From Ricordea florida (taxonomy: Eukaryota; Cnidaria; Anthozoa; Corallimorpharia; Ricordeidae): DNA of 64,000 nt. Below, one piece after another: positions 44,061 through 49,939 of this stretch. A program made the translations under genes and the position numbers. A model generated the notes under the pieces. It had not been told where the DNA came from, did not search any database, and worked only from the letters and a program-made list of their open reading frames with translations. Numbering within the stretch: the first letter of the stretch is position 1; every line of letters starts with the position of its first letter. The DNA lies in the NCBI GenBank assembly GCA_949710005.1, contig OX453282.1, positions 4,311,389 through 4,375,388 of the forward strand. Direction: 5' to 3'.

Positions 44061-45859
44061 CAGGAGGGAGGGGGTGACTCTATTGTTTTCGAATGTCTGT
44101 CGGCGACCGACTCATCACTGCCAGTGTGACGTCACATAGCAACAAGTCAAGGCTTCGTTTGGCTTGCTCAATTAAACGTCGGGACGGCATTGAATCGAAA
44201 CGAAAAGGAGGATAATACAAGCTATTATAGCGCTATTATTCACTAATTTGTCATAAGTGTGCAAGCTTTGTTGTGGTATTATCTGTGAGTAGAACTGTTT
44301 GTTGTTTTGTGCGCGTTTTTGTTCCAAATTTTATTGAAAACAAATCGGGTAGACCGCCATCTTGACTTCGGGTTGAGTAAAAGCCACCCAAAACGCCCAC
44401 CGTTTTTTCATCAAGTTTTTAACAGAAGGACCTCATAATAGGAGGTTTTGTTCCTTTTTAATATACCTTTTTAGCCATTGTTAGTTCTTCTTAATGTGAT
44501 GAGCCATTCTGCTCATCAATCCTTTTGAGTGCGAGGGTGTCGTTTTGATTTCCCGCGAGTTAAACTTTGTTGGCTTGATGAAAGGTCAAGACTCTATGTT
44601 TACTAGCTGTTAGCTGGTTGAATGCTGGTATTTTTATTATTATTATTTTTTTTTTTTTTGGGGGGGGGGGGTAGTTGACGGCCTGTGTGTCTAAACTGTG
44701 CTAATTCGACTGCCTGTGTTAAATTTTGTTGGCTGTTTGGTCTAAATTCTGTTGGCATTTTGATTGTCTGTGTTCAAATTTTGTTGGCTTTCTGTCTCTG
44801 CATTTAGGGGCTTACATGGTGGCTCGTTTATTGCCTGTCTAAAAAGAATTGCTGCCTTGTTGGCTGCCTTGGTATAAAACGTTTTGGTGGCTGTTGACTT
44901 TCTGGCTAAGTGGTCTAAATTTTGCGCCGATCTTTGACTGGCTGCATTCAGATTTAATTGGTGGCTTTTATCTTTGTGTCCCAAGGTATTTGTTGGCTGT
45001 TGACTGCCTGTGCATAAATTGTGCTGGCTAATGCTGTCTTTTTGATCAAATTCTATTTAGTTAATAATATTAAAAATTAATTTAGTGTAATAAAACAATA
45101 ATTTTATAATTGAGGAAAAAATAATAGAAAAATAAGTTTAAAAAACCTTAAGTAAAAAAAGTAGTGTAGTAAAAAAAGGTGCATTGTTTTAGTATAAGGT
45201 AGGAGGAAAATTATAATGATGAATGAAAGTATGGTATTGTGTATGTATTTGGTGACAGGCTTGTTGCTGTATGATTTACTATTTGACATTTCTTGGCTTT
45301 GTAGCCCACAAATTCATTATTTTGTGCTTCTTGTGATGGCTGCCCTGCGTGCTCATGCTGTGTTAGCAGTCACGTTGCTTACTTTCCCAAGCCTTTTGAA
45401 ACTGCCATGTTCCCTCCATATCCCTTCCAAATCTTATGAGGAAAAAATAGCTCACTCCCCTTAGGCATCAAATGTACATGATTTGTTCTTCAGTCAAAAT
45501 ATGGATGTACCAAAAATGGTAGTCTCTTTCATATTGTCTATTTTTTAATACAGTACAAAGTAAGGCTTTTTCAAAACATTTACATGTCAAACCTCTTTAT
45601 TTCTATTTTAGCCTTGACATGTATTATCCTTACAATTATTTTCCTGTTTTACTGCAATGTACTGTACAGGATTTGCTTAAGGCTAATGGTTAAGTACAAT
45701 ACATTGTTGAATTGGGTGCTGGAGATACTGCTATTCCCTGCTGTTATTATTTTGAGAGTATTTTTTATCTTTGCTTGATCCACTTTATAAAGTTTTGTTA
45801 CACATAAAGCCACAAGTCAAATTCTCACTTGTACATTATTTCTGGCATAAAAAATCAAA

Positions 45860-46681
45860 GTGTTTTCTTTCCAGTCTAATTTGTGCCTTCTTGTTTTTCA
45901 TGGTATTTTGTTCAACCTTGGTACAACCCATAATTTAGTATTAGACTGCGAGTTTCATTCCGCTCCTGTTTACTTGTTGGCTGTTGCTATTATTTTGACC
46001 ATATCAGCCCTACCATATCCATTTCTTGTGGGCTCATATGTTGTGTCGGTAATGGCACTGGGGGAGAGCTTTGATGCTAACTCTAGACAATGTTTAAAAT
46101 TGCCACTGTTTTTTCCCATTTTGTATCTTTGCTTTGGTGTACTGTTAACTTATCCCTGTGAAAAAATGGTTGAATTACACCATCCAGGTTTTGTATTCAG
46201 CACGGTGATAAGGCCAAAAAGGTTTGTGAAAACCATGTCAGTAATTGATATAACAGGTAAAGCCCACATATTTACGTTTGCACCATATGGAACTGTGAGA
46301 GATTTAAGATCTCAAGTAAATAGCAAATTCAAGATAACAACTGATCTATATTGTTTGTCATGTCGTGGCAAGCCATTGTGTGATTATTTACCTTTGAATG
46401 AAATAACTGGAAGAGTGATCATGGATGGACGGTTGATTGGAGGTATACAATGCTATTTAAAGGGATGTGAAAATGATGTTGGTTCTCGTAAGTTTGATAG
46501 TATGATTGGGCAGTATGAAATGAAATGTACCCCTGAGGACATAACATCTGATTTTGAAATTGTCAAGAATCTTAGAGTATGTGATAAACATTACGCCAGT
46601 TTACCACCTAGAGGGCAGTCAAGCCTACAAAGGGAAAAAGTTCCTCAAGACCACGCAGTGATGTCCAGCGAGGTATTCTGA
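45860..46681 (+). CDS. Ubiquitin-like domain fused to a THAP-like C2CH zinc finger
   Basis: A 273-codon frame. Residues 1-125 are very hydrophobic and T-rich at DNA level and may be intron or a membrane region; Met126 (46235) is a likelier start. Residues 126-195 align with ubiquitin: DITGK, TVRDLRSQV, CRGKPLCDY, NEI and a C-terminal RLIGG, about 64 residues from TGK to GG against 68 in ubiquitin. Then C198-x4-C203-x37-C241-x2-H244, ending VCDKHY, fits the THAP C2CH spacing, though other THAP residues (W, P) are not evident. The frame then ends TAG-side at VF after a probable frameshift; another frame from 46699 continues with CSQCNNKVC. Such a fusion inside a TIR element is unusual. Function inferred only: DNA binding plus a ubiquitin-type tag or adaptor. 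Confidence 0.55.
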   Translation: MFSFQSNLCLLVFHGILFNLGTTHNLVLDCEFHSAPVYLLAVAIILTISALPYPFLVGSYVVSVMALGESFDANSRQCLKLPLFFPILYLCFGVLLTYPCEKMVELHHPGFVFSTVIRPKRFVKTMSVIDITGKAHIFTFAPYGTVRDLRSQVNSKFKITTDLYCLSCRGKPLCDYLPLNEITGRVIMDGRLIGGIQCYLKGCENDVGSRKFDSMIGQYEMKCTPEDITSDFEIVKNLRVCDKHYASLPPRGQSSLQREKVPQDHAVMSSEVF

Positions 46682-46698
46682 AATCAACACCATGTATT

Positions 46699-47015
46699 GT
46701 GACATGCTCACAATGTAACAATAAGGTTTGCCTAACCAGTGATGTTCCCTGCAAGAAACATAACATAATTATTTTTAATAACCAGTTTTCAGTGGCTTGC
46801 AACTTTTTGTATGAAATAAATAATAATAAGACAGATTTACACAATGTGCAGATACTTGCAATGGATCTAGTACAGACTATATATGTATGTCATGTCAGCC
46901 TTTCCTTTGGCAACCCATTAAAATAGAGAATGAATACAAAAAGGCTCAAAACATGTTTCAACAAAAACAAGGACGTGCAACTTCCACAACCCAGTCAAAT
47001 TCAGACAATTCTCAA
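46699..47015 (+). pseudogene. Cysteine-rich continuation, frameshifted
   Basis: TCSQCNNKVCLTSDVPCKKH in one frame, then, after a shift near 46870, YICMSCQPFLWQPIKIENEY and a Gln/Ser-rich stretch to a stop near 47020. Two CxxC pairs suggest a second zinc-binding unit following the C2CH finger. Confidence 0.4.
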
Positions 47016-47748: not shown

Positions 47749-48311
47749 AAAATTACTTTATTATTCTGAATAGTAATAATTCTCTAGTTTTGTAAGCAAG
47801 TTTTCAATTCTTTTTATTATTCAGTGAACTGGAATATATGACAGTATAATTTATTTATCCAGTTTCGTGACTAGTAGCGTAAATATGCCATTTTAGACAA
47901 GACTCAAGTAAAGGTAGTGCCATCAAAAGCATTGCTGACAGTGTACATGTACCACATCTATTAATGTTTGTAAGCCACAGAAATCAGTTATCCAAATAAT
48001 TTTTTTCTGCAGAGACTTTTCTTGACCACATAAACATAGAAATTTTACAGTGACATTGTGGATGACATCCATATCGTACAATTTCAAACCTCTCAACCGT
48101 AGCATAAGAGTTTGTTTTGCCAGGGTAAGGATAGACCTAGATAGACCTGGATAGCAGAACTTAAAAACAAAACAATCTACTTCTGAATAATTCTGAACTA
48201 TAGTAAAGTTCATTTTCCACTCAAGGGGTGTTTACTGGTGTATTTCTGAAACAAATCTTATATATTGGTATTGCTACTATTAAAAGTAAGTCAAATAATT
48301 TCAAAACTTAC

Positions 48312-48411
48312 CGCTAGGCCTAGGACGGCTGATGCCAAGTAGCTGTTTCTTCACGCCGGCTTCTCCAAAGGCCACTCCATTGACTTTGAAGGGATTGATG
48401 AGACGAACCAT
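48312..48411 (-). CDS. First exon near the right end of the TIR element
   Basis: ATG 48411 opens MVRLINPFKVNGVAFGEAGV and KKQLLGISRPRPS, ending CTAGCG|GTAAGT in phase 1. Low-complexity is absent and the donor is strong. Following exons on the minus strand (candidates near 48213 and 47990) do not join in frame convincingly. Family unknown; it suggests the element carries a gene on each strand. Confidence 0.4.
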
Positions 48412-49939
48412 AAGCACTGAAGAATTAATTATTGGCACAGAGCAAACTTAATATATGATGTACCAAACCTCCTATTCTGGGATCAGAACATCTCCGCATT
48501 TCTGCGTGGGCTCCGGGAAAACGTTATCAACCCATTAAAGTTTGCCGACGTCTCCGCCACTTGTTAGTATGTTTCTAACCAAAATGCGAGGCCTTTGAAT
48601 AATTCATCGTACCGAAAATTACTTCAAAGAAGTCTTTCATATATTTTGATTCCTGGGTAACATTGAATAAAGTAATTGAATCATCAAAACGTTAGAAAAT
48701 TCGACATATCTTTTTGTTAACGAACAAAAAAATTTGCCCGCCATATTGAAAATCACCGATGTATGACGTGACGTCACACTGGCAGTTATGACCAAACCAC
48801 CGATTTGCCTGGAGACGCCCCTCCCTCCTGGGGTGCTTTAATTTTGCTCAATCAAACCCGCTCAGCCATCACATTCGTCGGTGGCTTCAAATCCAGATTA
48901 CGTGTGTTTTCCTCAAGTGGAAACGAATCAGTGTGTCACCCAGCTACAAGCTCTCGATCACCAACCTGTCGGTCAAGAGGCAGAAGAACCGGCTTGAAAA
49001 CTAGGGCCCAAGAATCAAGGAAAATATCCAACATTCCTGTGATTACTTCGCCGAGGGTTTTTTATGCAAGTTCGAACTCTGAACGAACAGCGAATGCGAA
49101 TACTTTAATTCCTATTCCAACAAGAAAACCCACCGATCAAGCTACAGCAGGAACTCATTTTGTTCCAGCGGTTATACGCTCAAATCCATTTGACCCTGAT
49201 GCCGAAATTGAGCGAAATTAAGGAGCTTAGAACTACTGCGGGAAAAAATCCAAATTGGATGTATCGTCGAGTCTTGGCTAAAACATCATATTAGCGATTC
49301 AGTTGTAAACATTGAAGGCTATATTTTAGTACGCAAGGACCGCCTGTCACCCGATCACGGAGGAGTATGCATTTACATCGAGGACATAAAGTACCAACTC
49401 GTTGAAAATTCGACATGTTATGACGACCACGTGATTATCTGGGTCACGCTTATGCCCACTCGTTCTCCCCGCGGGGTCTCTTGTGTCCTGTTAGCAGTTG
49501 TTTACTACCCTGGTCAACAAGTCCAGTTGACTCCGATGGACAAAAATTACTGACTCATCTCTTCGATAGTATGACAGCGGTCGAGGCCATGTTTCCCAGC
49601 TGCTGGTTAATAATAATTGGTGATTTAACCGTCTGCACACCGGCCGTCTGTAAAACCATTTGAAGCTAAGGCAGCTAGTAAAAGTTCCAACAAGAGGCGA
49701 TGCAGTGCCCGACCTTGTTCTCACAAACATGAGCGAACATTTCTCGTATGTGAAAAAAATTACTGACTCATCTCTTCAATAGTATGACAGCGGTCGAGGC
49801 CATGTTTCCCAGCTACTGGTTAATAATAACTGGCGATTTTAACCGTCTGCACACCGGCCGTCTGCAAAACCATTTCAAGCTGAAGCAGCTTGTAAAATTT
49901 CCAACAAGAGGCGATGCAGTGCTCGACCTTGTTCAATAG

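Follow-up and report, generated by a model that had tools for sequence, protein, structure and literature searches.

Among described DNA transposons, members of the P superfamily are characterized by an 8-bp target duplication, terminal and internal inverted repeats, a THAP zinc site and truncated repressor proteins, while hAT elements combine an 8-bp target duplication with the terminal consensus YARNG and a BED domain. Here we describe an element from a 64,000-nucleotide stretch of the Ricordea florida genome (contig OX453282.1; C11:4311389-4375388 of the 538-Mb, 48-contig assembly GCA_949710005.1), hereafter called the window, to which all unprefixed positions refer. The element, at 44061-48830, is a whole 4770-bp copy of a DNA transposon with terminal inverted repeats (TIRs), and its gene combines a ubiquitin-like domain, a THAP-like zinc site and a ParB-like domain. 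A first-pass annotation, made from the letters of the window, had proposed a little-described DNA transposon or cargo-bearing element. That proposal is supported by the common ends of the copies, by their 8-bp target duplications, by the position of the gene inside the ends and by three domain profiles.

The element opens with CAGGAGGGAGGGG at 44061 and closes with the complement of that sequence at 48830. Copies elsewhere in the genome start at base 1 of the element used as query and stop at base 4770, so that the boundaries are exact; the inverted ends noted in the first-pass annotation, both outer and inner, were confirmed. The 5′ outer TIR, CAGGAGGGAGGGGG (44061-44074, plus strand), is common to the other copies, and the 3′ outer TIR (48818-48830, minus strand) has a run one base shorter than in most of them, the outer TIR being 13-14 bp long. 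Further in, the 5′ inner TIR (44112-44135, plus strand), with CACTGCCAGTGTGACGTCAC, contains the palindrome TGACGTCA and forms a 24-bp inverted repeat, 96% complementary, with the 3′ inner TIR (48768-48791, minus strand). A third pair of inverted sequences lies ~350-490 bp inside the ends, where a 5′ subterminal block (44429-44525, plus strand) is an inverted copy of a 3′ block (48389-48484, minus strand), with 61-65% identity over 100-127 aligned positions in all three copies compared.

Both outer ends could be read in ten copies, two of them across nested inserts. A perfect 8-bp target duplication was found in seven of the ten (GGCCAGAC, GCCCTGAT, GTCGAGTA, ACCAACCA, CCTATACC, GTTTACAG and AATGAATG), one more copy matched at 7/8 bases, and two, the window copy and L026, had none. 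The empty site claimed for the window copy was borne out, as the joined flanks match two repeats elsewhere in the window, at 54391 (minus strand, 197/200) and 59343 (plus strand, 190/197). By this comparison a duplication could amount to no more than 0-1 G, indicating that the window copy is without the 8-bp duplication; the true target duplication that had been sought through other copies was thus found there and is absent here. The repeat at the insertion site occurs three times within 16 kb (43861-49230, 53993-54590 and 59172-59739), in both orientations, and one of the three is split by the transposon. Its label as a long interspersed nuclear element (LINE) is carried over from the first-pass annotation and is kept provisionally: in Pfam, two frames of the 54-kb copy matched endonucleases weakly and below cut-off (E = 0.064 and 0.23), and the tested frames of the other two copies had no endonuclease match. 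Terminal inverted repeats and a duplication of constant length, the marks of a cut-and-paste DNA transposon, are both present in the family.

The gene inside these ends encodes, near its N end, a ubiquitin-like (Ubl) domain ending in RLIGG (46235-46445, plus strand) which, as the first-pass annotation had read it, runs into C-x4-C-x37-C-x2-H within one frame. The Pfam profile PF00240 matches 4/6 family members, reaching E = 2.2e-5 on the copy L014 (24.6 bits against a cut-off of 25.4, 0.8 bit under) and E = 0.0024 on the window frame. A profile of the domain searched against the PDB found ubiquitin and ISG15; the best short ISG15 chain had E = 1.6e-5, the largest scores in this search being sums over polyubiquitin repeats. 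The element resembles ubiquitin and ISG15 in sequence pattern and in placing RLIGG at the position of RLRGG, but the similarity is distant and the domain is here an N-terminal fusion in a transposon protein. AlphaFold models of the two protein halves had a mean predicted local distance difference test (pLDDT) score of 33 and 29 (28.9 for the Ubl part), too low for fold comparison.

THAP domains follow the pattern C-x2-4-C-x35-50-C-x2-H, and the C-x4-C-x37-C-x2-H of the element (46451-46591, plus strand) fits this cysteine/histidine spacing. Using hhalign, a profile of this C2CH site, nearly without diversity (Neff 1.1), was compared with 12 THAP domains picked from the top matches of the same genome. 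The probability was 92% (P = 5.5e-7 for a single comparison) with all four zinc ligands aligned, and a longer profile of the ubiquitin-like and zinc parts (Ubl-Zn) reached 80% against the same set; the controls gave 0.2% (reversed profile) and 0.1% (the unrelated ParB part). The RVCDKHY of the element likewise recalls the RVCSxHF of THAP (PF05485). However, the invariant tryptophan between the zinc halves, present in 12/12 of the genomic domains, is absent from the element rows, and so are the proline of FP, the serine after the cysteine and the phenylalanine after the histidine, all invariant in the 12. For the AVPTIF box of THAP the element has at best a weak STPCIV ~33 residues after the histidine, outside the hhalign alignment. 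Pfam gave no THAP match on the element protein, and the element was missing from the 150 listed places out of 1343 PF05485 candidates in the genome. Because the invariant residues are not kept, "THAP-like" is as far as the assignment goes. Many of the 150 listed THAP places share identical scores and have open frames 501-546 aa long, which is a sign of young THAP-bearing transposon families that may include trans partners.

Downstream, the EGNHRL frame pointed out by the first-pass annotation (47455-47748, plus strand) is present, contains EGNHRLWVALKEGIPFIPCCVI together with the 3′ end of the gene, and is ParB-like by PHROGs. ParB-named PHROGs match 4/4 copies (best E = 8.5e-6). The 97-aa frame of the window copy scored best with phrog_498 (E = 1.5e-4), a family named DNA methyltransferase of which a part close to the N end was matched; among the ParB-named families, phrog_620 came first (E = 0.0034). 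Neither an exact reversal nor a hand scramble of the sequence matched any family, and eight exact shuffles matched no ParB family (best chance E = 0.023). Pfam gave no match on this part, with PF02195 itself having 0 matches in the genome, and the only NCBIfam match was LIC10775_fam (E = 0.0074, in 1/4 copies). The NGFQEPIIIS...DGKAYITEGNHRLWVALKEGIPFIPCCVI of the element fits the profiles of phage ParB-like proteins (PHROGs 620, 723, 8071 and 1033, and phrog_498); unlike those proteins, the domain sits in a eukaryotic transposon and is without a Pfam match. IMG/VR scans with both protein halves found no relative, and a single match of the ParB part to a phage record (E = 0.6) was disregarded.

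Comparison of copies suggests how these parts could be joined. A probable intron 1 lies in the 5′ leader (44285-46200, plus strand), with the donor GTGAGT in 10/11 and the acceptor ATTCAG in 13/14 of the copies shown, from which we infer that it is probably spliced. Met 46235, taken as the start by the first-pass annotation, is present in 3/14 copies shown and had to give way to an ATG at 46202, found in 13/14 (ACG in the window copy), which opens a conserved start (46202-46234, plus strand) reading MVIRPKRFVKT in the other copies. Beyond the zinc site is a second cysteine cluster (46704-46895, plus strand; CxxC...CKKH...CIDPC...ICMSC as in L002), for which Pfam showed no family above chance and whose frame is broken in the window copy. 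A TAG follows at 47019, and its surroundings (AAAAGTAGGAT) are identical in 15/15 copies covering the site. A probable 139-nt intron 2 with GT...AG ends (47018-47156, plus strand) would remove this TAG and join the ParB-like frame in phase; where both of its ends were read (13 copies), it measures 139 nt in 11 copies and 137-138 nt in the other 2. Alternatively, the TAG may be a lesion common to the copies. We set aside the reading of the common TAG as proof of a dead founder because the 139-nt intron explains it equally well. The frame of L002 is intact up to the TAG, and when copies were spliced in silico 0/8 had an intact gene; the window copy carries a 2-nt insertion near 46618, a 20-nt gap near 47275 and more indels around the ParB motif.

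The gene was present in the long copies fetched. Coding pieces outside the ends, which the first-pass annotation had named as evidence that would count against it, did not appear in protein searches of the whole genome: 44/45 matches of the Ubl-Zn protein fell in the family or in an old relative, L038, the remaining one having E = 9, and 41/41 matches of the ParB part fell in the family. On the other strand, the separate exon of the first-pass annotation (VRLINPFKVNGVAFGEAGVKKQLLGISRPRPSG; 48312-48416, minus strand) does have splice-like ends, and its peptide was matched at 15 places, all in the transposon family (weakest E = 0.42). However, the same stretch belongs to the subterminal inverted repeat, so that it may be either a possible exon or a cis-acting site.

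The old relative (C13:9585814 to ~9587600) is a compact, decayed element in which the family's right outer end, its two inner repeats, the 3′ subterminal block and what is left of the Ubl-Zn gene can be made out; no left outer end was recognised, and the ParB-like part is unrecognisable. Aligned with the family, it is 59% identical at the nucleotide level across 906 positions and 62% across 476, and L038 DNA used as a genome query matched only the transposon family. The presence of the inner repeats and decayed gene remains at ~60% identity indicates that gene and inner repeats have long travelled together.

The transposon family is low-copy. The element 44061-48830 as query gave at least 74 matching pieces genome-wide, and queries with the left and right ends gave 18 and 21 places, respectively. 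A whole-genome scan for the inner repeat, allowing ≤2 mismatches, found 36 matches (1 in the backward control), all at places already assigned to the family or to L038. A 16-base outer pattern had 98 matches, 28 exact and 70 with one mismatch (23 in all in the backward control), and the only new place among the exact matches, C6:7526604, is a solo end fragment. Among the sites read, which covered only some of the 70 one-mismatch sites, there was no second family with these ends. Near-matches with CAGGGGGGAGGGGGTG were rejected as such a family after 9 of 22 sites were read (L040-L046, L048 and L049), only L045 and L048 being alike; these two start GCGGATCCAGGGGGGAGGGGGTGGATTG and resemble the terminus of a different repeat family. 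Ends-only copies were also rejected as carriers of another interior, L029-L037 being without an opposite outer end (≤4 mismatches) in the fetched stretch; one locus, L039, was compared by BLAST only. Kimura two-parameter distances over 169 pairs from 19 copies or part copies had a median of 0.055, with 0.014 between L002 and L004 and a minimum of 0.005 between L004 and L005. As L004 and L005 differ in their 3′ flanks, they are separate insertions, indicating recent movement. A further copy, L024, lies on the same contig ~28 kb from the window copy (C11:4388619-4393635). Elsewhere in the window, tandem arrays occupy 15246-15495 and 50847-51016, with 33/65-bp and 30-bp units.

What moves these copies was sought in their reading frames. 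The first-pass annotation had found no standard transposase motif, and Pfam scans concur: nested inserts apart, the frames scanned showed no recognisable transposase family; they included 10 of the 26 listed for four copies with a length of ≥90 aa, and short exons could be missed. Neither a P-type transposase core nor an hAT transposase was recognised in these frames, and matches to DUF5402, DUF678, RIG-I_C-RD and other Pfam families were below cut-off and taken as chance. The transposon is thus non-autonomous at best, unless it represents a new kind. Longer copies were rejected as an autonomous form: the extra DNA of L009, L012/L013, L014, L016-L019 and L021/L022 is mutually unmatched beyond small pieces and ordinary internal repeats, and we read it as nested insertions. 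The inserts at 5355-9713 of L009 and 2393-4791 of L018 contain frames that we take to be DDE-transposase-like, presumably ISL2EU-like with a YqaJ-like frame, and pogo-like; because each is in a single copy, at different positions, we regard them as nested. Elements that we take to be Polinton-like, with peptides like those of a protein-primed polymerase, an integrase, a capsid protein and a packaging ATPase, lie in or beside L012/L013 (C1:13858200-13875400), L029 and L037, and in L011/L013 element bases 4147-4152 flank the Polinton-like insert on both sides as a 6-bp duplication.

On small counts, a codon test of the ATG-to-TAG part and of a 75-codon ParB core gave no indication of purifying selection while the copies amplified. 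In the ATG-to-TAG part, changes common to at least three copies (n = 28) were 23 nonsynonymous and 5 synonymous, against 5.9 synonymous expected without selection; synonymous changes numbered 2 (5.5 expected) among those in exactly two copies (n = 23) and 45 (39.8 expected) among single-copy changes (n = 161). In the ParB core, 4/12 shared changes were synonymous (2.7 expected). Since the codon changes look neutral, amplification shows no dependence on the gene.

We see about an even chance that this is a low-copy transposon which carries an accessory gene of its own for a DNA-binding protein and depends for its movement on a separate transposase, acting in trans, that makes 8-bp duplications. 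A promoter near the 5′ end would probably drive one spliced gene, whose product would join the ubiquitin-like domain, with RLIGG as a possible cleavage point, to the THAP-like zinc domain, the second cysteine cluster and the ParB-like domain. Truncated P-element proteins, which bind the ends of their own element or regulate it, provide a model for an accessory role. The product here would most likely be accessory or regulatory, binding the ends of the element via the THAP-like domain, and its ubiquitin-like part might set its stability or release, while cutting and joining would be done in trans by a transposase of the 8-bp-duplicating class. Several observations weigh against this. No trans-acting partner was found, though one would usually have the same ends; with the ends-only interiors different or, as in L034 and L005, masked in part, and most one-mismatch ends unread, a partner could be hidden. 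The long copies are alike and gene-bearing, as would sooner be expected of an autonomous element than of a deletion derivative, and DDE-transposase-like frames do occur within copies if, as we presume, those in the L009 and L018 inserts are such. Neutral codon changes would also fit trans-complementation among the copies of a true autonomous element.

It is unlikely, but worth weighing, that the family is instead an internally deleted derivative of a two-gene element, with a lost minus-strand transposase gene of which 48312-48416 was the first exon. The open piece near the 3′ end, its splice-like ends, its 15 matches in the family and a similar motif in L038 are what such a history would leave, but an inverted copy of the stretch lies at the 5′ end, as fits a cis-acting site, and among the longer copies none was found to have extra sequence of its own. 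That the Ubl-THAP-ParB protein itself mobilises the element, its THAP-like part recognising the ends and the catalytic steps falling to its ParB-like fold or to an unrecognised core, is rather more doubtful. It is the only sizeable gene seen between the ends besides nested inserts, it has left remains in the old relative, the inner repeat turns up in no other context in the assembly, and movement has been recent; against this stand the lack of an intact frame in all eight copies spliced in silico and the neutral codon changes, and we know of no ParB-fold protein that performs strand transfer with an 8-bp duplication. A DNA transposon class lacking an RNase H-type (DDE) transposase, with the THAP-like part recognising the ends, the ParB-like fold acting as a switch or nuclease and the Ubl part controlling the protein's lifetime, seems improbable.

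A Pack-type capture of a host Ubl-THAP-ParB gene as passive cargo would account for the apparent introns and the neutral changes among copies; however, the protein search of the assembly found no host copy, and gene and inner repeats have been together long enough to diverge to ~60% identity, making capture decidedly improbable. Chance open frames in non-coding transposon filler would agree with the worthless AlphaFold models, the Pfam scores under curated cut-offs and the neutral codon pattern, but are hardly credible, since each of three distinct domains was matched with null controls and the matches follow in order, in frames that can be linked.

The gene brings ubiquitin-like and bacterial-type ParB-like domains together with a THAP-like zinc site in one eukaryotic transposon. 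Should it prove regulatory, it would be a new example of how a transposon keeps itself or its host in check by way of protein stability; should it prove to be the mobiliser, the transposition mechanism would lie outside those known to us. As the ends, the duplication length and the likely gene boundaries are now fixed, related genomes can be searched directly.

Literature surveyed at the level of abstracts contained no description that we recognised of ubiquitin-like, THAP-like and ParB-like domains together in one transposon. The element resembles hAT transposons in its 8-bp duplication and in ends starting CAG, but the ends read CAGGA, with A at the fifth base in place of the G of YARNG, the zinc site is THAP-like instead of BED, and no hAT transposase was recognised. 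From the P superfamily it differs in having no recognised P core, in carrying Ubl and ParB-like domains, and in its terminal bases. Lacking a recognised transposase, it does not qualify as a member, and the link to P elements is an analogy: an 8-bp duplication, terminal and internal inverted repeats and a zinc site of THAP type are the features that the two have in common.

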